Shown here in pieces: positions 11,316 to 25,224 of a stretch of 64,000 nt of DNA. Location of the stretch: assembly GCF_019649055.1 (NCBI RefSeq), contig NW_026570224.1, positions 496,001-560,000 on the forward strand. The letters run 5' to 3'. The stretch comes from Paramacrobiotus metropolitanus (taxonomy: Eukaryota > Tardigrada > Eutardigrada > Parachela > Macrobiotidae). The translations under genes and the position numbers were made by a program. Each line of letters opens with the position of its first letter. Positions within the stretch are counted from its first letter, which is position 1. Below the pieces are notes generated by a model, which did not search any database, had not been told where the DNA came from, and saw only the letters and a list, made by a program, of their open reading frames with translations.

Positions 11316-14300
11316 TTACTCTTTAAGAACATGGCATTCATCATAGGAGAAATTAAAACAGTTCTCATTCGTTACTGAGCAAGAATTCCGAATCTCCAAT
11401 AAAACATGCGCAATGTATTTCTCAATAAACTCTTTATCACCGGTCCCGTTGGCATGTTTTTCAAAGCACTCCGTCATATCCACCAATCGAAGGCTTAAAC
11501 TGTCGTAGTTTTTCTTAATCACACCCAGTATCTGCGAAGGACAACGAATGAGTCAAAGCAGAGTCTCAGACAAGTGAGTTTCGAAGACAAACAAACCTCT
11601 TCTCTTTCCATGGTAACTTTTTGATACTCAGCCGAAAACGCTTCGATTTTGGGAGTGAAGTGGTTAATCACCGAACGAAGGTTTGTCATGGCACTGAGGT
11701 ATTTTCGCGCTGCGGCTTGCGTACTTGCCGACTGCACCGCACTGTACCGCAGTCCCATGGCAAAGGCATTATTCACCATAGAACTGTTGCGGACGATTTC
11801 ATAACACAAGTCATCGTAGCTGCCAACTTGGGACAAAATCGCATCACCGCCAATTAGAAAGATATTAAGGATATTCACAACCTGTGTGAACGAAAGGATG
11901 ACAAATCAAACACTACACCTTAATGTTCGGCAAGTGCAGGGCGTGTAAGGTTGGTACCAACCTGGGTGCACAAAAGGAAGAAATTGGACATTTGCTCCAT
12001 TAAGTGGCTCTCGTTAGCCTCCAGAAATTTCAGCAAAGACAACAGGCTTCCCCAGAGTGTTCGCCATTGATAAGGTAAACGGAAACGTGTTCGCTTCTGA
12101 TAATCCATCAAGCGATAAACAATAAGCAAACAACGGAAATACAGATCGTGAGGAAAGTTCAGCATCATGTGGGTCATGATGAATTCTGACAATAAATTCA
12201 ATACAGCACAAGCCAGCGGCTCCGGTTTGGAACTTTTTAGAATCTGGCAAGGATGGTAACGCGAGGCAGCACGGAAAAACTGCACTCGGTAATTGATGTT
12301 GAAGTCATGCATAAACTGCGTCGTGTAATGGTCCTGGGAAACCGAAATTTTATCCACAGAAGAAGAATAAAGTGAACAAATTCGATTACCTCGGTTATTG
12401 TGCAAAGAATAACTAGACTCATTTTTGCGTGGAGAAAGGGCTTATCTTGGCGAATATGTTGTAGCACTATGGAGGAATACTGGAGAAATTCCACGAACAA
12501 ATTGGAAGGTTCATTCACTGTATTCGCCTGGTCCAAGGGGGTCACCACAGCCGGTTCACTCGCTGTTTCCGGAATCTGGTTCTTTTCGTTTTCGTGTCCC
12601 GTTCCGTTTGTCTGGGGAGGGTCAACGAGAATTTCGGATTGTGCCTAAATCAACAAAATTAGTCAAATATCATCACAAATGTACAGATGTTGTATTTATA
12701 ATTTTTAGAAAACAAAGACTCACGTGGGAAAACGCATGAACAAAATTGCGCCCAATTTTCAAACCAGTACATAACCCGAGCAGTGCAGCATCTTCCAGCA
12801 CCACATTCAACGAAGCTGCAGGGGTCCGAGTTACCGTCTTTGCTATCTGTAAATTTGTAATGCATTATGACTGCGATGCAGCACTCCTATAATTGCATTT
12901 CGAGTTTGTACGAATACAGTAGTCCACCACATAAACGATATATTCTGATATTCGAATATCAATCTTAAAAACAGCATAAAGTTGCTCCTACCCAAGTCAT
13001 CCACGAACGGTCTTTTTGTAAGGCAATTACTTGTTGGAAAAATGCTGTCGTACAATTTCTGAAAGACTCCCCAATAACAGCTGCAATGCCCTGCAACAAG
13101 CAAACACTCGCTAACCTAAAGAATACATACAAGCTCCATAATTTTTGTGTTTTACCATCAGTTCAATTGCAGGGTCCAATACTGATAACTGCATGTAAGG
13201 ATTTGCTTCTGGCTGCAACCAAAGCAAAATTTCATCATAAATAAAGTGTACTGTGCTTCAAGTTTTAAAAACGATAACAATCATTAGTGAACCATTAAGC
13301 GACCACCAAAAGATAACACAAACACATAAAACTATTTCTGGAAGAAATATGCGAAAGAAACGTGAAAACATACCTCAGCAGTAAAGAAATGCGGAAGTAT
13401 TCCAAGCAAAGTAATCACATCATATCCAACCACTTTGCGTTTTCTGGGATCCGTCACTATCCGCATGAAATCCTCGAAAAAGGAGTAATGCATCAAATAA
13501 GGCAAAAAAGGGTTGTGATTGATGTTGTCATTTAGCTGAAAAAATAAAGCACGAATAAATTCAGAGTGCATTTGATTTGCCAACTCCAATACAAGCAAAA
13601 TTATCTACTTCTTTGGCATGGACTGCCATGGAGACTGGTGTTCATTCCCAGAAGAACTGCAAACTCACCGCAACAAGTTTTAGCAGCACGCGAAAAGCCA
13701 ACTTCACAACGGTATCGTTTGTGCCTCTTATAGTAGCCCTTAATGTCTCAGAAAATATCTGCAAGTTGTAAACAAGCACCAGTAAATTCAGCCGTCATAT
13801 TCAGGATCAAAATGATTAAACTGTTCCTGAGGACCAGAATGCAAAATTAATGAAAACATCACTCACAAAGTATCAACTTTTCGCAAGTCATATAATCATC
13901 TAATTGAGCCTCACCTTGCCTTGAATTTCTCGACTCGTCTGAGTATGTCCAAGCAGAATTTCAGAAACGTCAATATTCCGTTTCGAAAGAATCTCTATGA
14001 GGATACAAAGGTACTGCAACAAAAAAACCCCGCTTATCAATGCACGCTTATCAAGGGCAAAACAGCCACAAAGTTCCATTTTTTATTAATACAAGGAAAC
14101 TTAAGCTGCTACTAACAATGTCTAGCACCAGATTAATCCGGAATCGAATATTTTAACATTGTGCAAGCTTAAAAGTCTACTTTCTACAAAAAACCAACCA
14201 AAAAGACAAAACAACTTACAATCAGTGCATGATACGACGAACTGCCGGATGAATGGCCATCTAAACAGTCGCTCTCCAAACGCTCCACAATTTTTTGCGA

Positions 14301-14847
14301 AAACTTGTGCAGTATTAGCTAAAAAACATACTTTGAATTAATCTAGCTTCACGCACCTCTAGTGCAAAACAAAATCCAAAATCTTAAATATCTGATTACG
14401 ATAAAAACCATAATTAATGCATCAATGACAAAGCACATCAAGTACTTCAAAGTTCAAACCTTTTTCTGATTCAAATCCGTTTCTGAATAAGAGTCTAACT
14501 GCTTGGTAAAATACAGAACTTTCGGCTGCAAACAGAAGGAAAAAATTGAACAGAAATGCTCTATAATGTGTATGTATACGTCCTTATCAATCAACTTTTG
14601 CGTACCTTTAGCACGAAGAACTCATCCCAAAAATGAACATGTTGCTCAACATTCTTCGCCTAAAAAACACACCAGCCATAAATATTTAACGTTTTTTGTT
14701 AAATTATTTTTATACTAATTAGCAAGCAACAAAAAGGAAAATTAGCATTCATTTGTAACTTACACAGAGCAAATCGTCATACATCTGCACAATCTTTTCT
14801 CTCAGCTGCGGTTTCGGCAGCCCAGAGGGCCGCTGTGCCTGTATCAT
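11316..14847 (-). CDS. ARMH3: ARMH3 (armadillo-like helical domain-containing protein 3)
   Basis: ARMH3 (human C10orf76) is a Golgi-associated helical-repeat protein that recruits PI4-kinase IIIbeta and GBF1. Fourteen exons: 14847-14764, 14659-14606, 14525-14460, 14318-14220, 14013-13915, 13758-13669, 13535-13374, 13212-13156, 13090-12992, 12846-12724, 12644-12390, 12333-11962, 11881-11597 and 11531-11316. Together they give 686 residues, almost exactly the human length (689). Landmarks in order: LREKIVQMYDDL at the N terminus, VVGYDVITLLGIL, NFVHAF, FLQYSSIVLQ, MHDFNINYRV, PLACAVLNLLSEFIMTHMM, YQWRTLWGSLLSLLKFL, SYDDLCYEIVR, VINHFTPKIEAFSA and IKKNYDSLSLRL. Every intron is in phase 0. The start is the first ATG after the presumed promoter shared with GTF2H2. 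Confidence 0.94.
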
Positions 14848-15485
14848 TTTTATTATCAGATAAGATGGCTATAGTGTAAATCCTCGGTGAATACTAGCTG
14901 ATGGAGGGAGTGAATGCACGGAATTGCAGGAACTGGGACTTCTTTAATTGGACGTTTACAATACATCGACAGCGACAACGCCATTTCCTGCATCACCACA
15001 CTGCATCACAGTGCATTGTATAGCCTTTACCACAACATCCCGAAAGACACCTGGAACCGGTATTCAAAAATAACTCTTCGTCCAGCCATGAAAACGAAAC
15101 AAGAATTCAGAATTAATAAGTAGCTAGCATGACGTACTTAAAAGTACTTCAAATTAGAAACATTCCTATTCACAAAAATGAAAAAATGCTTTTTTGGCTT
15201 TTTTTGGCTGTTTGCTGTGTGAGACACAGCCGCCGCCTGTGCAAGGCTGCATATGAGTCTCATTGTTTTGCCTGCTGTTGATTGCTGAATCGCGCAGATT
15301 AGTGATCACCGATGTAAGTATCACTGCTCGTAACTCAGCCTCGTACAGTATTTCTTATTTTTCTACATTTGTCTCTTGTTCTCCACCTCATCAGACACAT
15401 CTTCGAATTTATTTTGGCATTTTTTTGTTGCCGTCAACTCTCCCTCCGCTAGAAAACCTGGTCACAATCTGATTGCCAGTATAAA
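14848..15485. promoter_or_regulatory. Shared upstream region of ARMH3 and GTF2H2
   Basis: The start codons of the divergent genes lie 638 bases apart, so this stretch must contain both promoters. I see no obvious TATA box pair; it contains T-rich runs and no coding frame. Confidence 0.5.
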
Positions 15486-17706
15486 ATGGCCGACCCAGGA
15501 CTGGACGATGCAGATGCTCAGGGATATCGATGGGAAACAGAATACGAGCGAACATGGTAAACACATGTCGCGTTCCCGATCCCAGACACAAACAAGCGAG
15601 AAAAAATCGTAAACTTGAATTTTGTTGCAGGGAAGTCCTACAAGAAGATGCCACGGGATCGTTGACAGCCAGCGTACAGGATGTGGTTCTGGGCATGAAG
15701 CGTCGACGGCTGCTCGAGAAAAAACCCAATTTGCGTTTGGGCATGGTCAGGGATTTATAATGCGTCTAAAGTCTGTAACGAATGCGAGTGCACTTGGGAC
15801 GTTTGTATTATTTTATGGTTTTGCAGATGCGACATGTCTTCGTTATCATGGACATGTCGGATTCTATGAAAGATCAAGACTTCAAACCGAATCGAGCATT
15901 CTGTGTGATAAAGGTAGGCGGCCATTCATGTTGTCAGTTTGTAGGTGGCAAGAATACAGTCCCGAGTGAGTTTTTTTGCAGTTACTGGAGTACTTTGTGG
16001 GTGAATTTTTCGATCAAAATCCGATTGGACAAATTGGATTCATTACTACTAAGAACAAACGTGCAGAGCGAATGACGGAACTCAGTGGTAAGAATTAAGA
16101 AAATATGCGCGTGCTGTATTTAAAATTAAATACATTACGCGCATATTTTCATATGTGTTCTAGCAATTTCAGCGTGCAAAATGCATTTCAGTATTGGCTT
16201 AATGGCTTTCTCAGTTTGTTGCTTTGCCCAGTACTTTCATTTAGTGAAAACAAATCCTACGAAATCCCGCTTTTTAACAAAGACAATGCTTTAGGATCCT
16301 ATAATTTTTGTTGGGGACACTTTGGGGTTATCTAACTCTAATTTGATTTTTTTAGGTAATGCCAAAAAACACCTGGCAGCTTTAAATTTATTACGTACAA
16401 ATGATCTGTCTGGCGAGCCATCCCTCCAAAATTCCTTGGAACTGGCAGCTGAGACCTTGCGTAACATTCCGAGCCATGCAAGTAGAGAGATCATCGTCGT
16501 CATGGGCAGTTTGACTTCCTGTGACCCCGGAAATATTTTCGATACTGCGCGAGTGAGATTTTGTTTTATCCACTGCTTCCGGAAAGCGATACATACAGCC
16601 GAACTGGCTCTGTTTTGGTGTTTTTAGATTGTTCATTATTCTCAAATATTATATACGGTGCTTACAGGTTTAATAATGTGATGTATTTATAGATTTTTAT
16701 TTACCAGCAAGGGCAGCGTGTCTTATTTTAATTGTTACCACGAGGTGTTTTTTAGATGCTTCGAGAGTGCAACATTCGATGCTCGGTGATCGGTCTATCC
16801 GCAGAAGTTTCAATTTGTCGAAATCTGGCGAAAGACACTGTAGGAGAATACAGCGTTGCTTTGGATGAATCGCATTTAAAAGATGTTATGATGGCACAAG
16901 TATTTCCCCCTCCTGTTAGTGTAAGTCAACTTTCCTGATGTTTTGCTGGGGTACTTGTACATTAAGCAGTGACAAAATGTGTATTCTCTGGTGAATTTGT
17001 AGGCGAACTCTGACTCGTTCCTTATAAAGATGGGTATGTTTGGTGATCTATATTTCCAATAAGTTCCTTCTGTGGCTTGTTGCGAACAAATTGCGTGCTA
17101 ACTGTAGGATTTCCTCAGCAGAAAGCTCATGAGCGTTTGGATGAATACTCATTTTGCATATGGTAAAGCGGCTTTAGTTTTTTTTATCAGTCATGCATCA
17201 TCTGTTGCATACAACTTTAATTAATGTATTGTATTGAAATGTATTGAAATTAGAAGACTGTGTCTGTTTTCAGCCATCTGGACCAGTTGAATTCGTCACT
17301 ATATGGGAAACCTGGATACTTTTGTCCAGTGTGCATTAGTAAATATTGTGAATTACCAGTCGAATGCAAGGTTTGTGGGCTAACCTTGGTGTCAGCACCA
17401 CATCTGGCCCGCTCTTACCACCACCTTTTTCCTGTGGAAGCTTTTCAGGAATTATCTTCAGAACAATTACGTGCCTTCACCTCAAGGTATTTTGCAAGCG
17501 TTTTCATTCCCGAAATTCATGCGTTTTTAACTTGTGTCATTTGCAGAACATGCTTCGGATGTATGGCCAAAAATGAAGAGGAGAAATCTCATTGGTTTCA
17601 ATGCAAAAGTTGCAAGAATATTTTCTGTATTGATTGTGATTTATTTGTCCATGAAACACTGCATAGTTGTCCTGGCTGTGCTAGTAGCCCGGTAAAGCCG
17701 GAATAG
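15486..17706 (+). CDS. GTF2H2: TFIIH core subunit p44 (GTF2H2/SSL1)
   Basis: p44 is a core subunit of TFIIH, activating the XPD helicase in transcription initiation and nucleotide excision repair. Ten exons: 15486-15556, 15631-15745, 15827-15913, 15982-16087, 16356-16552, 16756-16920, 17003-17033, 17108-17162, 17274-17486 and 17547-17706. They give 399 residues, against 395 in human. The N-terminal von Willebrand A domain is clear: [18 protein letters not shown], with the MIDAS-like DxSxS altered to DMSDS, then [22 protein letters not shown] and SVIGLSAEV. The C-terminal zinc modules follow: YFCPVC...[23 protein letters not shown], then the RING-like [18 protein letters not shown] and CPGC. 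The intron 17487-17546 is 60 bases with no stop, so an unspliced reading adds 20 residues between the two zinc modules. AATAAA is at 17801. Confidence 0.97.
16100..16149. repeat. Imperfect 23-base hairpin in a GTF2H2 intron
   Basis: A palindrome with arms of about 23 bases (20 matching), beginning AAAATATGCGCGT and ending in its complement, with almost no loop. It lies in intron 4 of GTF2H2. It could be a remnant of a tiny foldback element or a structured intron segment. Confidence 0.55.
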
Positions 17707-17800
17707 CTTTTTTGAATACAGGTTCTCTCTTTCGTATTATGTCGTATGCAGCCGTGATCACGTAAAATGCTGCATGTCAGACGTAAATGAACGTTCCAGA

Positions 17801-17806
17801 AATAAA
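17801..17806 (+). promoter_or_regulatory. Polyadenylation signal of GTF2H2
   Basis: AATAAA 94 bases after the stop. Only 242 bases separate this gene's stop from the stop of the convergent gene on the other strand. Confidence 0.55.
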
Positions 17807-17948
17807 GCGGCTTTGCTGAGCTACTGTGCAAGTAGCAGTGGTCACAAGCAGGAGTGAACTGTTGTTTTATTAAACGTAAAACGAACGCGTTCGTAAATCC
17901 AAGGCCACAAAAAGGTGTAAACGATACAAAATCTCGGGAACAAACTAG

Positions 17949-20230
17949 TTACTTTTTCGGCTTATAAAAATAATCGATTGTGGTAGGCAAACATCTGCGA
18001 AAATCCAAATCTACACACGAAAGAGGGTCCTTCTTGTCAAAACGCTGAAAATCTAAGCCGCGGCCGATTTTCACCGTCCATCCATTATCAAATCTAAAAG
18101 TAGGCGAAGCGACAAACTTAGCCTCTACTCTTCGTAAGCGTAGCTATCAACGAAAACATTCATTACTCAAGTACATGCACCTTATTTCTCTATCATGAAG
18201 ATGCGGGTTATTTTCTACATCCAGCGTAAGATTTCGTATGGCAAGCGAGTTACGAAAACTTTTCAGTTGCTCGTTTCCCTTCTGCAAAAATACTGACTGT
18301 ACAGTTTCAATAAAGAGCGTTTCATGTGCATACAAAAAGGAGCAGATACCGGAGAAATTCTTGTCCGCAGGCAGATCTTTCGTAAACCCGGTGCGAGTCT
18401 TAAAACAACGGAACAAAATTCTACAAACCGTTGGATCTGTAAAAAAAAACTGCTAAAGACTCACACAGAAATCACCATTTATTATGAGCAGCACTGCAGC
18501 AGAAAACAAACAAAACTGAGTGGATTAACATACTTGAAACGGCGACTGAATAAATGGATCATCCACCTCAACGGTCGCAATGTTTGAATCCAAACACCTT
18601 TCAAATATTCTACGAAAACCGAACCTTGTCCCGTTTTCCGGAACGGTGATCTGCTCGTGAAATCCCGGAACAACTTCTTTCGCAGCTTGCGCGGCCAAAA
18701 ATGTGTCAAATACATCTTTCTTTTCCTGTGCGCTTAACATCATAATTTTTCCAAAGAGACATGGTAGTGGATTGTGCTGTGCATGAAGGCAACTTGAACA
18801 AAACCAATATCCGCACGTTACGCATCGGATTTCGTATGGTCGGTCATTTCTAGGCAGCTCCATTGGCGTACCACACGTATCGTTCGGGCACCTTACCATC
18901 AGCGGACTGAAAAATAACGAAAAGCATTTTTCAAAAATTCAAATTATTATTTCGTTCTGTAAAACTTATCACGATAAGGAAGTGTTCCAAAAATCACAAA
19001 ATTAAATTCCACAGTAAATATCACCAACAGCAATAAGAAGGTTAACAAGTACGATAATCTAACAACGTGGTAACAGGATTTTTCGAGCAACAAGCCGTAA
19101 AAATGTACTCACTTTTCTGAAAGAAACAACTGGGAAATCTTGTCTGAATACTGATTAAAAGTGGCCGTATCGACCAGTTTTGAGATCTGCAAAAGGTCGA
19201 TTTAGTGACTTTTTCCAAGGGCAATCAAAAGCATCTACCATGGCATCATCAGCAGGCGTCGCACAATTTTCATTCAAGCAAGTTAAACGCTTCAGATCTT
19301 TCCTTCGAATTCGGCTTCTGAAGTCCAAACTGACGCACTGCCGACAAAAGGCATGCCGACATATTTCAAATATCACTGCCGAAATGCTTGGGACGCTTTC
19401 ATCGCAAAGAGGGCATTTGACCATTTTGGATTTTTCGACTTCATGCCGATGAATACTTGTTTGTGGAGACGAAACGCGAGCAACTATCGTAATGCAATAG
19501 CAGAGGTTAAACAAAATCGCTATGTTAGTATCAACTACTATCAAGCCAGGTTAAATTAACGGAAACAGAAACATCAAAATCGAACCATCCATTTTCATAC
19601 GAACGAAAGACTGCAACAAGTTGGAAAACAAATCTGCAAAGTGATTAATATTAATTTTATGACATTATATATTAATCACTTTGAAATGTTAATCACTACC
19701 GTGGCATGCTGATGCAGTTTAACCGTATTTACAGAAAAAGTGACGTACAGAGTACAACAAAATACTTTACGTTTCTGTAAGATCTGGTCACTGCACAACA
19801 ATCAAAATCACTAAAGAAAAATTTAAACATGTATTCGGATTACTGGTGGATTACAGCCCATACCTGAGAATACTTTCTTCTTGTGCACATTTCCTGTGAC
19901 GGAGTCTAAGCACTCCTGGATGCATGCTGCTTGCGAAGAGGAAGTGATCACCTCCGCACCTTCTGGATGCTTGGTACGAATAGCGCCAACAGCTGATAAG
20001 GGGATCACTTCCGAGCTTTTCCGTTTATTGGTTCCTGCAAACCAAGTTTTTACAGATCCATGAATCCAGAATTCCAAGCGTAACATTAACTGGAATAATT
20101 CACCTTGGGAATCTGACGCTTTGCCATGAGACTTGTTCGAATGCGAACGTATTTCATCCACGAAAATCACGTCCTCGTCCACATCGGAATCATCGTCCAA
20201 TACGATCGTGCCATCCAGAACGGCCGACAT
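17949..20230 (-). CDS. RING1-IBR zinc-finger protein fused to MITD1 C-terminal (PLD-like) domain
   Basis: Eight exons: 20230-20104, 20034-19864, 19483-19239, 19186-19113, 18906-18534, 18436-18350, 18281-18181 and 18093-17949. They give 440 residues with every phase matching. Residues 1-30 are very acidic with two hydrophobic-acidic strings (TIVLDDD and DVIFVDE) resembling SUMO-interaction motifs. Residues 123-170 hold an RBR-type RING1 (CPLC, CRHAFCRQC, CLNENC). Residues 212-255 hold a complete IBR zinc finger (CPNDTC, CVTC, CSSC, H250, C255). No RING2 with a catalytic cysteine follows. Instead, in the same exon as the IBR, the chain runs into the MIT_C domain of MITD1: GFHEQITVPENG, VDDPFIQ, then LHDREIRFDNGW and VKIGRGLDF close to the C terminus. 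In MITD1 this domain is phospholipase-D-like and binds membranes at the midbody with ESCRT-III. There is no MIT domain. A RING-IBR protein tied to a membrane-binding domain is my reading; E3 activity is uncertain. Confidence 0.85.
19638..19682. repeat. 14-base inverted repeat in an intron of the RING-IBR-MIT_C gene
   Basis: AAAGTGATTAATAT and its exact complement are separated by 17 bases inside the second intron of the RING-IBR-MIT_C gene. A third partial copy (GTTAATCAC) follows at once. Confidence 0.55.
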
Positions 20231-20753
20231 GGCTTACTGATCACTACTGGTTTGTTTTTTGCTGAAAATCACAACTGCTACAATTGAAAATGATTAAGGT
20301 AACATTTTGGTGGGATCACGAATACCACAGCATGCAAAACCGAATTAATGAGGAGCCTGAAAAATTGGCCATTGTGAAAACGAAATGAAGAAACTGAAAA
20401 TGCAGGAAAAAATTAAAGAGAATTTACTGCACTTATTTTGCGAATCGCTGGCTGTTGCGCCCGCCAGGGCGGGCGGTAACTTTCTGAAAGAATTCTTCGC
20501 CAGTCTGCCTCGAGGCCCCCTCGACTCTGCTGCCTTGGAACTTGAATCTGTCAATTACTCTGTTTTGTGATTTTTCCCGCATGTTGAAGTGAGCAAAACA
20601 AACAAGCGCCGTAACATTTATTGTTCATAGAACCGTTTAAACTTTGAATTTATTTTATGTAAAATCTTTGAAAGGTTAAGCTTAATTTTTAAATTACAAT
20701 CACTTCAAACCGCTTCAGACCGGAAGCAGAACGGTTTTGCTCGCTCGTATCCA
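20231..20753. promoter_or_regulatory. Shared upstream region of the RING-IBR-MIT_C gene and IGBP1
   Basis: 523 bases separate the two divergent start codons. There is no coding frame I can support, so both promoters must lie here. Confidence 0.5.
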
Positions 20754-22574
20754 ATGGCTGATCAGGACTCAGAAAGCCTGCCCCAGCTCTTCAACCGAGC
20801 GGAAATTCAAATGGAAAAGTTAGAAGACTCGGAAAGGAGCCCGGTACATACCATTCATTTTATTATTTACGATACGAGATAAGCCATTAGCTGTTTTGAT
20901 GTTCCAACGAATACTGCCAGTTTTTGCTAAAGGTTGTGTAGTATTGGCATTGCGAATCATGAGCGTCATCCATGTATTACTACTTTAGTAACAGCTAGTT
21001 ACGAGTAGTTACAGAAATATTAGTGTTTTGTTTTGTTGTATTTTGCTATTTGTTTGTGTATGTGCTTTAGGAAAGCATCAGTGCCCTCATCAAACAGTTT
21101 GAAACAGCAACCAAATTCGTATCGATTTTGGGACTATTTAGCCGTAACGAGAGCGCGGACGAAATTTCGACTGCCGATTTGAGGTAAGCACTAAGCACCG
21201 CAAGCTCTTAGAATTTTTGTGTAAAACCATAAATGCAAAGCGGAAGTGAATCCACCACAAGATATGCACTCTGGGTTTCAGATTTTTGGCGTGAAGCCGT
21301 TTTGTATACTCTTATCAATTGTTTCGCTCTACTATTTTTTATAACGAGGCAGTTGTGTTGTTTGTGCAGGTATCTTCTGCTGCCAGCGTACTTAGCCAGA
21401 CTTACCTTAAAACTAACCGACGGTCGCAAAGCTCGCTTGGATGCTGCGGAGATCTATATCGTCGATTATCTTCAGCGCTGTAAAGATTACGGCGTTCCTG
21501 GCAGTAATGCTATCCCAGATAAAGATTTGAAAATCAGTATTCAGGAAAACGGTTCATCGGACACTGATGCAGTGCAAACGTCCACCGTGAAATCCCCGCA
21601 AGACCAGATAGCCGAAGCCGTAAATAAACGGGCAGCGAAGATTGCCGCGTTCAAGCACAAACTGGAGAGTAAAGAAAAGGCTGCCGCTTTAAGAAAAAAG
21701 TTGGAGGATGGGAGTGCTGATGAAAATGAACAAGTAAATTTCCTCAATAGTAAAGCGCCCATTATAGCGTTTTATATAAAAATTCGGTACAGTACTTGAT
21801 TTGTACTAAACGACGAATCACTGCCATGGCATTGTGCCAAATTTTTTTGACTCGTAAAATCGTTATTTTTAGCGTGGATATTATTACAACCTTTTTAACA
21901 TGTGGATTTTGGATCTGATGGAGGAGCTTGATTTCGTGCGGGAAGAGAAACGATTATTGGAACACCGGGAGAAATTGTCCAGAGGCGCTTCGGAAGACGA
22001 ACAACAGCCAGTGCAGTCTCCCATGTCGAAGACTTTGTCGAAATTTGTAAGAAGTGAAATATTGTATGGTGGTGTAGTTTATTTCCAGCTGGAGGCAAAC
22101 AATTATTCTGATTAATATTGCGCATGCATTTTAGAATAAGCCCGTAACAATAGTCAAGAATGAACTCCAGAAGCAAGTTTTCGGTGCCGGCTATCCGAGT
22201 CTTCCCCTGTTAACCGTGGACGAGTTTTATCAGGAGTTGGTGCAAGAAGGAGCATTGCCCGCCCCAGGATCCAAAGCCGCAAAGAACCTCAATTATATGG
22301 GTCCTACCCAGGCTGAACTGGAGAGTGATGACGTTAAAAAAGAGCAGGATGTTGAGTCCGACAATCCGGAATACCTCCGTAACGCGCGTGATTACGACGA
22401 CTGGAAGGACGGTACGATTCGGTGCTGTGCGCTGCTTATGTAGTCGTAATTGTGTTTCATGGAGCTGAGTCAACTTACTGAGCCGGACTCTTTACCTATT
22501 TTGTATTTACAAAAAGTTGTTCGCTTTTGGCAGACCATCGACGGGGTTGGGGAAACCGAATCGGACAAGGATAA
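20754..22574 (+). CDS. IGBP1: IGBP1 / alpha4 (Tap42), PP2A regulatory subunit
   Basis: Alpha4 binds and stabilises the catalytic subunits of PP2A, PP4 and PP6, and acts downstream of TOR. Exons 20754-20843, 21071-21183, 21370-21733, 21873-22046, 22135-22411 and 22534-22574 give 352 residues (human 339). Landmarks: PQLFNRAEIQMEKLE at the N terminus, LGLFSRNES then DLRYLLLPAYLARLTLK (the TPR-like helical bundle that contacts the phosphatase), RAAKIAAFKHK, the KQVFGAGYPSLPLLTVDEFY motif, and DYDDWKDD followed by a short RRGWGNR tail. The tail is best read through a split codon at 22411/22534, which reproduces the WKD...RGxGNR ending of human IGBP1. Two minor downstream frames are not part of it. 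Confidence 0.94.
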
Positions 22575-23291
22575 TACAGTGCTTAATCGTTGGCTACCGT
22601 CATTGGGATGCCATTCTTGAGGCCGGCTACTGATTCCGAAGAGCCGGCGTATGGAACAAATTGGAACACGGGAACTGCTGCTACTGCGCAATCAGCTGAT
22701 CGGGTTTTTCGGTTAGTTGTTGACTTCACTAGCTTTGTGATCATTTGGCAAATACGGTTTTGTTCTGACAATGAGTTAAGACTTTTAGATTAAGTTATAT
22801 AAGGGCGTGTGGATTTTAAAAGTGTCTACAGTAGATAATTTTTAGGGTTTTGACTGTGCACTTTAAATGCGAGAATTTCGAAAATTTTTAGTTTGACCAC
22901 TCACTGTCCACAGAATGACATGCTTTGTAATAGTCTAAAGAAGTAAAAACAGAATAATCTTCAATACAAAAAAACAACGTAACAACTGAACAATTGGTGC
23001 AGCGCTAAAGCGTAGTCAAAATCTACATCAGACATGTTACACTGTGCTGTACAGGGTAACAGAAGGACCAACTATGCTACAATAAATTCTGCCTTTACGC
23101 CCCAAACGACCAGGCCACACAATGCCCGGTCATTCTATCCGCCAAAATGCAGCTACCGTAAAACCAATTCACCGCACACAAACCAATCAAATTTTAACTC
23201 CAAGAGATGAGTATCTTTGGAAAGGCAATCGGAGATTTTTCCACCATCAAACACGATCAGAATTCAAACTGCTGAGAAAAACATACTGCCT
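22575..23291. other. Intergenic between convergent IGBP1 and SS18-like
   Basis: About 715 bases of 3' flanking sequence. No gene seen. Confidence 0.5.
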
Positions 23292-25224
23292 TTACGAGGA
23301 CGAACCAGTGGAACCGGCCGGGGAAGGCATTCCGTACGGAGATGCGGGAGAGGGCATGGCGGGGGATCTAAACTGTCCAGGTTGCTGTGTCGGAGAGGGC
23401 ATTGAATACTGACCAGAAGGAAGGGGCGCCGTATATCCTCCTTGAGAGTAACTGTTGGAGGGGGGCTGCATCATGCCGGAAGGATGCTGCGCGGGGACAT
23501 GCTGCTGCTGATGTTGCTGTGACTGGTGGTGCATCTGCTGTACAGATTGCTGCTGCGATACTTGCGAACCGGGATATTGCACTTGCTGTTGCTGCTGTGC
23601 GTAATTATCCATGTACATCCGAGACTGGTAATTACCCTGTGGCCGCTGTTGCTCGTGGACCGGACCTGACCGAATAAAGCAGTTTGCAGAAAACGAAAAT
23701 TTTTTTCAAATTTAAACACACAAAAAACAGAAATATCCGCGCAATTCTAAAACTATGTACATGTATCAGGTCAAATTCTGAAGGAAAAACACTTAAACTC
23801 AATAAATAACTGCCTGACCTTGAGGCGCAGCAGGACGATAACCGGGAGGTATGCTCCGTTTAGGCTGCATTTGGGGTGGAGGCATTGCAGCGTAGTTAGG
23901 GTCACTGCTTTCTTGAGTAGGATAACCATATCCGCCACCATAATTTTGCGTGTTGGCACCTATTTCGTCAAATAAGCAAGGGCATAAACACATCTGGTCA
24001 TCACCACGCATCAAAGCTCAAAAAAGGATGCTGGACAAATAAATCACTCACCCCTTGTTGGCACACTGTAAGGGTAATTCATGGGAGGAGGCATGGGATT
24101 ATTCGTCACATTCCCTGTCGGTGATTGCTGTTGGTGCTGAGACGTTACCGGATTGCTCGCTCCCATGGGAGAATTGGCCATATATCCTTGTGCGTAACCC
24201 TGTGGTCGCGATGGACCGTTGGCCGTCGGCTGGAACGAGAGATTCGGCGATAAGGGCTGACCAGGACCCTGTGTGCTTTGCGTCAGGGGGGAGTACACCG
24301 GTTGCGGTCGAGGCTGCTGCGCTGGATGACCGTACGTGGAATGCGGCGACGGCTGCGGGAACTGCTGCTGTCCATTGGCCATATACGACCCTGGTGGAGG
24401 ACTCATTTGGGGTGGAGTGCCTTGAGATGTTGGCCTCAACATATGAGGACTTTGGGAAATTCGAGAATGGTGTGATGGTACCGGTTCAGAAGGAGGCGGC
24501 ATAGAATTAACGGCAGGCGGTTGGGCCGCAGCCGGCTGCTGCTCAGTTAAACCGTTGAGATACAGGATATTTTTGTTTAGAACCGGCATTAATTCACCAA
24601 ATACTTCCGATCGACCGTCCATAATGGCTTGATTAATTTGCAGAATAATCTGAGCATTCTGTTCAAGCATCTAAAACAAATCAAAGGAACGTTCTACAGT
24701 TATTCAGTCAACTGAAGTACAACACCGTATGAACCATGCTATTATCGTTTGTACCTTAGAAACTGTATCACGGTCGTTCGTGGGATGAACACTGGTCGAG
24801 GGCGACGGACTAGAATGACTGTAACCATTCTCCACAACAGGACCCGCCGGTTTGCCCGGTTGGGAATAATTAAACGACGAAGGGGTCCGACACCACCAGG
24901 GGAACTCGTTAGCCCGTTGGATCGGCCCATGGCACCGGGGACAGGGGGTGCAGAATGCATCGGCATATTGTTGTTTCCGTAGTTCATTCCGGGAGGCGGT
25001 GCCATTCCCATGGACATGGCGTCTCTATAGCCCGGATAATATGCCCCAGGGTTCTCCCCTGGGCGGGACATCATTGCAACATCTTGATTTACACCGGCGG
25101 TACGCAGTTGTGCATCGTCAAAAATATGATTCGGCTGCGATTCAGCCGATCCAGATGAATTAGAAGAACTTCGCTTGCGCGACTTCGGTTTCGGATTTTT
25201 GCTCGGCATCTTTCTCGATACCAT
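23292..25224 (-). CDS. SS18: SS18-like transcriptional coactivator (SNH plus QPGY-rich domain), apparent frameshift
   Basis: SS18 is a coactivator subunit of BAF (SWI/SNF) chromatin remodellers. Exons 25224-24755, 24670-24052, 23959-23819 and 23665-23292. The SNH domain begins at the exon 1/2 junction (SK then MLEQNAQIILQINQAIMDG and NKNILYLNGL), matching the KMLDDNNHLIQCIMD...LVYL of vertebrate SS18. The rest is Pro/Gln/Gly/Tyr/Ser-rich, ending in a Gln-rich block and MPSPAGSTGSSS. The first 157 codons precede SNH, where vertebrates have about 20. Exon 1 has two halves in different frames that meet at a run of four C (24882-24885 on the plus strand). One added base would join them and also restores the exon phase, so this looks like a homopolymer error or a true frameshift. 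No GT...AG intron with the right phase fits. The start could be 25224 or the next ATG at 25209. Confidence 0.78.

Follow-up and report, generated by a model that had tools for sequence, protein, structure and literature searches.

Does a single gene join the RING1 and IBR zinc fingers of an RBR ligase to the membrane-binding domain of MITD1, and if so, from which genes did the two halves come and what might the product do? The gene in question lies at 20230-17949 on the minus strand of the window, the 64,000-nucleotide stretch of Paramacrobiotus metropolitanus DNA analyzed here (contig NW_026570224.1, positions 496,001 to 560,000). It looks like a natural RBR cut just before its catalytic domain, the E2-binding half with complete zinc ligands being joined to a membrane domain, in an apparently new domain order and with both kinds of source gene surviving in the same genome. 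If the protein binds E2~ubiquitin, then RING1-IBR would be useful on its own without RING2, and the fusion would provide a physical link between the ubiquitin system and the membranes of MITD1. The preliminary description of the locus knew of no named protein with this order, and that statement is uncontradicted by the open-licence papers listed in literature searches: among the titles and abstract beginnings so listed, none describes the order RING1-IBR-MIT_C, and an NCBIfam search with the fusion protein gave no match at 0.01.

Gene model and exon structure

The gene encodes 445 residues, close to the approximately 440 of the preliminary description, in eight exons separated by seven introns, all of which are GT-AG. 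Splicing yields a single open frame, the splice sites are intact, and all eight exons are free of stops. Features are listed below in window coordinates; C40 and C140 are two RBR genes on other contigs, discussed in a later section.

20104..20230, minus strand: exon 1, start codon and acidic N terminus (gene model and sequence; an in-frame stop lies two codons upstream of the start)
20153..20206, minus strand: pair of stretches resembling SUMO-interaction motifs, residues 9-26 (pattern match, suggestive only)
19864..20034, minus strand: exon 2, 57 residues with a basic NKRK and without a recognized domain (gene model, Pfam)
19239..19483, minus strand: exon 3, RING1 (gene model, ligands, alignment with C40 and C140)
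19263..19415, minus strand: the eight zinc ligands of RING1, C123-C173, ending in a C-x4-C pair (residue positions)
19113..19186, minus strand: exon 4, RING1-IBR linker (preceding intron placed as in C40)
18534..18906, minus strand: exon 5, 373 bases, IBR finger, post-IBR linker and start of MIT_C (one open frame)
18759..18890, minus strand: IBR zinc ligands C212-C255 (residue positions; Pfam IBR 3.6e-10)
18666..18758, minus strand: residues 256-286, linker with a weak likeness to that between IBR and RING2 in C40 and C140 (shuffle fractions 0.035 and 0.04)
17967..18617, minus strand: Pfam MIT_C match, residues 303-440, exons 5-8 (1.1e-33)
18350..18436, minus strand: exon 6, MIT_C (gene model)
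18181..18296, minus strand: exon 7, MIT_C (gene model)
17949..18093, minus strand: exon 8, end of MIT_C (FDNGW..KIGRGLD) and stop (gene model)

The claim that the fusion is contained in one 373-base exon (18906-18534) is borne out, as exon 5 runs from the IBR finger into the start of MIT_C with the frame open throughout, and the RING1-IBR/MIT_C fusion gene is confirmed as real. That two adjacent genes had been merged into one was considered and rejected, since a single open exon covers both the IBR and the beginning of MIT_C, and the neighbors are different genes. On one side lies a convergent gene with a TFIIH C1_4 domain (17257-17703, plus strand), on the other a divergent gene of TAP42 type, pieces of which fall within 21236-22440 (plus strand); together they leave little space for extra exons of the window gene.

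Absence of RING2 and MIT domains

Patterns for RING2 applied to both strands of 14000-24000 produced one match, at 23732, which adjoins a stop and was taken as chance; the same patterns recovered RING2 in all three RBR genes used as controls. A whole-genome search with Pfam IBR_2 returned six matches, none of them on the contig of the window, although this is a weak test and the pattern search a better one, because among the three RBR genes examined IBR_2 matched C40 only. Pfam detected no MIT domain in the window protein, and of the four matches in a genome-wide MIT search none was on the contig of the window. Both absences asserted in the preliminary description are therefore upheld, and the gene is filed neither as an RBR ligase, being without RING2, nor as a strict MITD1, being without MIT. 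Two of the genome's MIT stretches, C140:236723-236923 and 266758-266958, have identical scores and lie on opposite strands at a distance of 30 kb, a picture that either a recent inverted duplication or an artefact of assembly would give.

Identity and origin of the MIT_C domain

The Pfam MIT_C match over residues 303-440 scores 116.6 bits against a cut-off of 25 (1.1e-33), and among PDB sequences the window protein matches a human MITD1 chain at 1.4e-28, so that the MITD1-type C-terminal domain named in the preliminary description is recovered above threshold in a profile search. MITD1 is recruited by ESCRT-III via its MIT domain (PMC6015221, PMC9477494), and its PLD-like domain binds membranes, a binding described as essential for abscission (PMC6015221); the protein is listed among highly conserved metazoan innovations (PMC3789837). 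Relative to the human protein and to the MITD1 resident in this genome, the window protein has the C-terminal PLD-like MIT_C, and it shares introns with the resident gene, but it carries RING1-IBR instead of the ESCRT-III-binding MIT, and some positions invariant in other MIT_C domains have changed, as detailed below.

In the genome as a whole (169.8 Mb, 533 contigs) MIT_C occurs in three stretches belonging to two genes, namely the window gene and the resident MITD1 at C66:697757-699200, which encodes 269 residues in the ordinary architecture (MIT, 6.6e-14; MIT_C, 5.2e-44). The three introns within MIT_C have phases 0, 0, and 2 in both genes. The first and third occupy identical positions in both alignments used, and the middle one coincides in one alignment and is displaced by two columns, within a gapped loop, in the other. 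Identity over MIT_C is 44% between window and resident (155 columns; 43-44% across alignments), 34% between window and human (157 columns), and 49% between resident and human (156 columns). In a tree of only five sequences (window, resident, human, and two bacterial) the window MIT_C joins the resident MITD1 with a support of 0.98. Given the shared introns and the grouping in the tree, the MIT_C half is most likely a DNA-level copy of MITD1 sequence that brought its introns along.

Acquisition from bacteria was also considered and is rejected by the same introns and tree, despite one close bacterial relative with an identity of 43% in its best segment and 37% over 155 columns, compared with the 34% between window and human. 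Relatives of MIT_C were found in two of 57 candidate stretches from prokaryote genome contigs, both in bacterial MAGs, and in neither of the two candidate stretches from viral contigs. In a Bacteroidota MAG (L011:3252-5378) BrxL N-terminal and ATPase domains are followed by MIT_C (4.6e-48); a longer BrxL model matches this protein only to position 482 of 675, and MIT_C replaces the remainder. In a Deltaproteobacteria MAG (L010:2673-5447) a dynamin-type GTPase domain is combined with a C-terminal MIT_C (4.2e-47). MIT_C is thus C-terminal behind another domain in these proteins as in the window protein, but their front ends are different and have no Pfam zinc-finger match. Such architectures show that MIT_C can follow very different domains.

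Several comparisons bear on whether the window MIT_C is still constrained. The resident, human, and two bacterial domains have 37 positions in common without variation; the window sequence retains 31 of these and has lost six, including a Tyr and a His of the 'YIR..HQ' stretch. It matches 46 of the 75 columns that are identical between resident and human MITD1, compared with 22 matches to the resident in the 80 columns where those two differ (Fisher 2.5e-5). When unconstrained change to the same identity was simulated, nine of 1000 sequences were stop-free, a somewhat too harsh standard in that all change is placed on one branch whereas part of the divergence belongs to the branch of the resident. 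As judged by these comparisons, the MIT_C of the window gene shows constraint. Its branch is nevertheless the longest in the tree (1.18 versus 0.44 for the resident), and this length together with the six lost positions points to a possible change in its contacts with the membrane or within a dimer.

The stretch 17949-18617 is net basic, with 26 K+R and 20 D+E in the stretch counted, whereas basic residues are fewer than acidic ones in each of the resident, human, and two bacterial domains; the basic excess fits binding to acidic membranes and is no proof of it. A predicted structure of exon 5 alone has a mean pLDDT of 44.8 and is uninformative.

The zinc fingers

The IBR matches its Pfam model over residues 193-255 with 40.2 bits against a cut-off of 24.3 (3.6e-10), and we assign its eight ligands as C212, C217, C234, C237, C242, C245, H250, and C255, in agreement with the full finger from C212 to C255 of the preliminary description. 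For RING1 all Pfam RING models fall under their cut-offs (best 19.9 versus 25.2), and the finger half has only weak matches among PDB sequences (TRIM30, 0.0063; ARIH2, 0.027). The RING1 call is for this reason based on alignment with C40 and C140 and on eight ligands in a C3HC4 arrangement, which we assign as C123, C126, C141, H143, C146, C149, C168, and C173.

In RBR ligases ubiquitin is passed by RING1 to the cysteine of RING2 (PMC5462532, PMC5548887). Zinc loop II of the window RING1 is C168-LNEN-C173, that is, C-x4-C, and departs from the C-x2-C spacing that is described as invariable in canonical RINGs (PMC5462532). An extended loop II in RBR RING1 domains is reported to keep E2~Ub open and to discourage direct transfer, and C-x4-C is the longest form described for them (PMC5462532, PMC5548887). 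The residue after C173 is Ala, so that there is no basic linchpin, a residue found in over half but not all canonical RINGs (PMC5462532). An HHARI mutant lacking the catalytic cysteine is reported to have no apparent activity, even with an added linchpin arginine (PMC5548887).

The E2 contact patch of HHARI is described as comprising four named residues, including Glu214 and Tyr215 (PMC5548887). These two align with Leu and Asp in the window RING1, the Asp being present in C40 and C140 as well, and the position of HHARI Ile188 is occupied by another hydrophobic residue, Leu125. Given the replacement of Glu214 and Tyr215, binding of E2 by the window RING1 may be lost or altered.

RBR relatives and the fusion joint

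A search of the genome with the finger half returned eight matches, three of which are the window gene itself. The best of the others is C40 (IBR 45%, 66 bits; RING1 38%, 31.7 bits), and further matches are C140 (IBR 41.1 and RING1 39.2 bits) and C5 (41.9 bits over both fingers). In direct alignments the IBR is nearer to C40 (34/71) than to C140 (28/72), whereas RING1 is slightly nearer to C140 (23/52) than to C40 (22/55). C40 has the order RING1, IBR, RING2, and with C140 it makes up the two RING1-IBR-RING2 genes of the genome that we take to be RNF14-like from features of human RNF14. The best of the 36 PDB sequences matching C40 is ARIH1, and RNF14 is not among their names. An N-terminal RWD domain is described for RNF14/ARA54 (PMC3940038); Pfam has no match in residues 1-121 of the window protein, and no RWD match ahead of RING1 in C40 or C140 either.

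The window gene and C40 share the position of the intron that directly follows RING1. The window gene has an extra intron before the IBR that is absent from C40 and C140, and lacks the intron after the IBR that both of these genes appear to have. Residues 256-286 show a weak likeness to the RBR linkers of C40 and C140 (fractions of 0.035 and 0.04 of shuffles, as listed above) and a likeness to the end of the MITD1 MIT domain that is no better than chance (0.26 of shuffles), and on this basis the fusion joint is probably near residue 286. Derivation of the linker from the MIT helix of MITD1 itself is, by the same fractions, less likely.

The window protein thus resembles RNF14/ARA54-type RBR ligases in its complete RING1 and IBR ligands, in one intron position, and weakly in the linker, and differs from them in having MIT_C instead of RING2/Rcat with its catalytic cysteine and in having no recognized RWD. 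RNF14-like parentage of the finger half is likely. The two fingers do not single out one RBR parent, the IBR being nearest to C40 and RING1 slightly nearer to C140. Taken with the evidence on MIT_C, the most likely origin of the gene is in copies of two kinds of gene resident in this genome, an RNF14-like RBR and MITD1. A seven-residue insertion, LFGKIMM (window 18758-18726), adjoins the apparent intron site of C40 and C140, and the stretch 18758-18726 ends in ..GCACAG, which resembles a splice acceptor; the insertion may be a coding remnant of a C40/C140-type intron.

The N-terminal region

Residues 9-26 contain two SUMO-motif-like stretches. Shuffling of the exon brings up both patterns at once in 0.4% of cases, one of the patterns having been relaxed after inspection of the sequence. 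The standard forward SIM pattern gave no match, and the motif pair is suggestive only. Among the open-licence papers listed for RNF14 together with SUMO, none bears on this point. SUMO-targeted ligases of the RNF4 type have an acidic N terminus with SIMs ahead of their RING, and the window protein likewise has an acidic N terminus with SIM-like motifs before its RING; it differs in its RBR-type C-x4-C RING1 followed by IBR and MIT_C, and in that SUMO binding is only suggested. Copying of exon 1 from the first exon of C40 is unsupported beyond composition (0.147); the C40 exon contains one similar SIM-like stretch.

Possible function

We consider it slightly better than an even chance that the chimera is a catalytically silent membrane adaptor for E2~ubiquitin or ubiquitin, or else a competitor of a full RBR ligase. 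Such a protein would have been assembled from a copy of an RNF14-like RBR, contributing both fingers and the first part of the linker without RING2, and a copy of MITD1, contributing MIT_C without MIT. RING1 would be expected to hold E2~ubiquitin in the open state without completing transfer alone. Binding to acidic membranes would be the expected role of MIT_C, which might also pair with ordinary MITD1; the adaptor would then enrich membranes in E2~ubiquitin or ubiquitin, or compete there with a full RBR ligase. With RING2 gone and loop II in the C-x4-C form, the simplest outcome would be that E2~Ub or ubiquitin is held but not transferred. The preliminary description had offered a 'membrane- or midbody-targeted ubiquitin ligase, or zinc-finger adaptor', and of these the adaptor is the better fit, whereas the C-x4-C loop and the absence of RING2 speak against the ligase.

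An adaptor or competitor is accordingly favored over an active membrane-tethered ligase in which RING1 would act as an ordinary RING and promote direct transfer from E2 to substrate. All eight RING ligands are kept and the hydrophobic Leu125 stands in the place of HHARI Ile188, as such a ligase would have it, but its loop is C-x4-C where canonical RINGs are described as invariably C-x2-C (PMC5462532), and Ala occupies the linchpin position, which is a weak argument alone in that the linchpin is not described for all canonical RINGs (PMC5462532); we regard activity of this kind as unlikely. A closer rival to the adaptor, which we still consider rather unlikely, is that the fingers are purely a docking module replacing MIT, outside the ubiquitin system, which would make the gene product an additional membrane tether of the MITD1 kind, bound to a different partner. 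The position of the fingers in the place of MIT ahead of MIT_C, the two E2-patch positions that differ from HHARI, and the bacterial MIT_C domains behind such unlike front ends as BrxL and a dynamin-type GTPase are all consistent with docking, whereas the retention of every zinc ligand of RING1 and IBR and an alignment with RBR ligases that extends through the RING1-IBR linker argue against it.

The long MIT_C branch is what would be expected if the gene were decaying, or were not expressed as one protein, or if the joint were an assembly error, but the intact splice sites, the stop-free exons, the constraint on MIT_C, and the location of the joint inside an exon that is open throughout, on a contig of 3.7 Mb, make these explanations quite improbable. 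More improbable still is a split ligase, in which the SIM-like N terminus would select SUMO-marked targets, MIT_C would bring the protein, alone or with MITD1, to abscission or ESCRT membranes, RING1-IBR would load E2~ubiquitin, and a resident RNF14-like protein would supply RING2 in trans, so that the full RBR reaction would take place only where both meet. It is conceivable that RING1-IBR operates together with a catalytic domain supplied in trans; parkin molecules are reported to activate one another in trans (PMC11368401), which is activation rather than the borrowing of a RING2.
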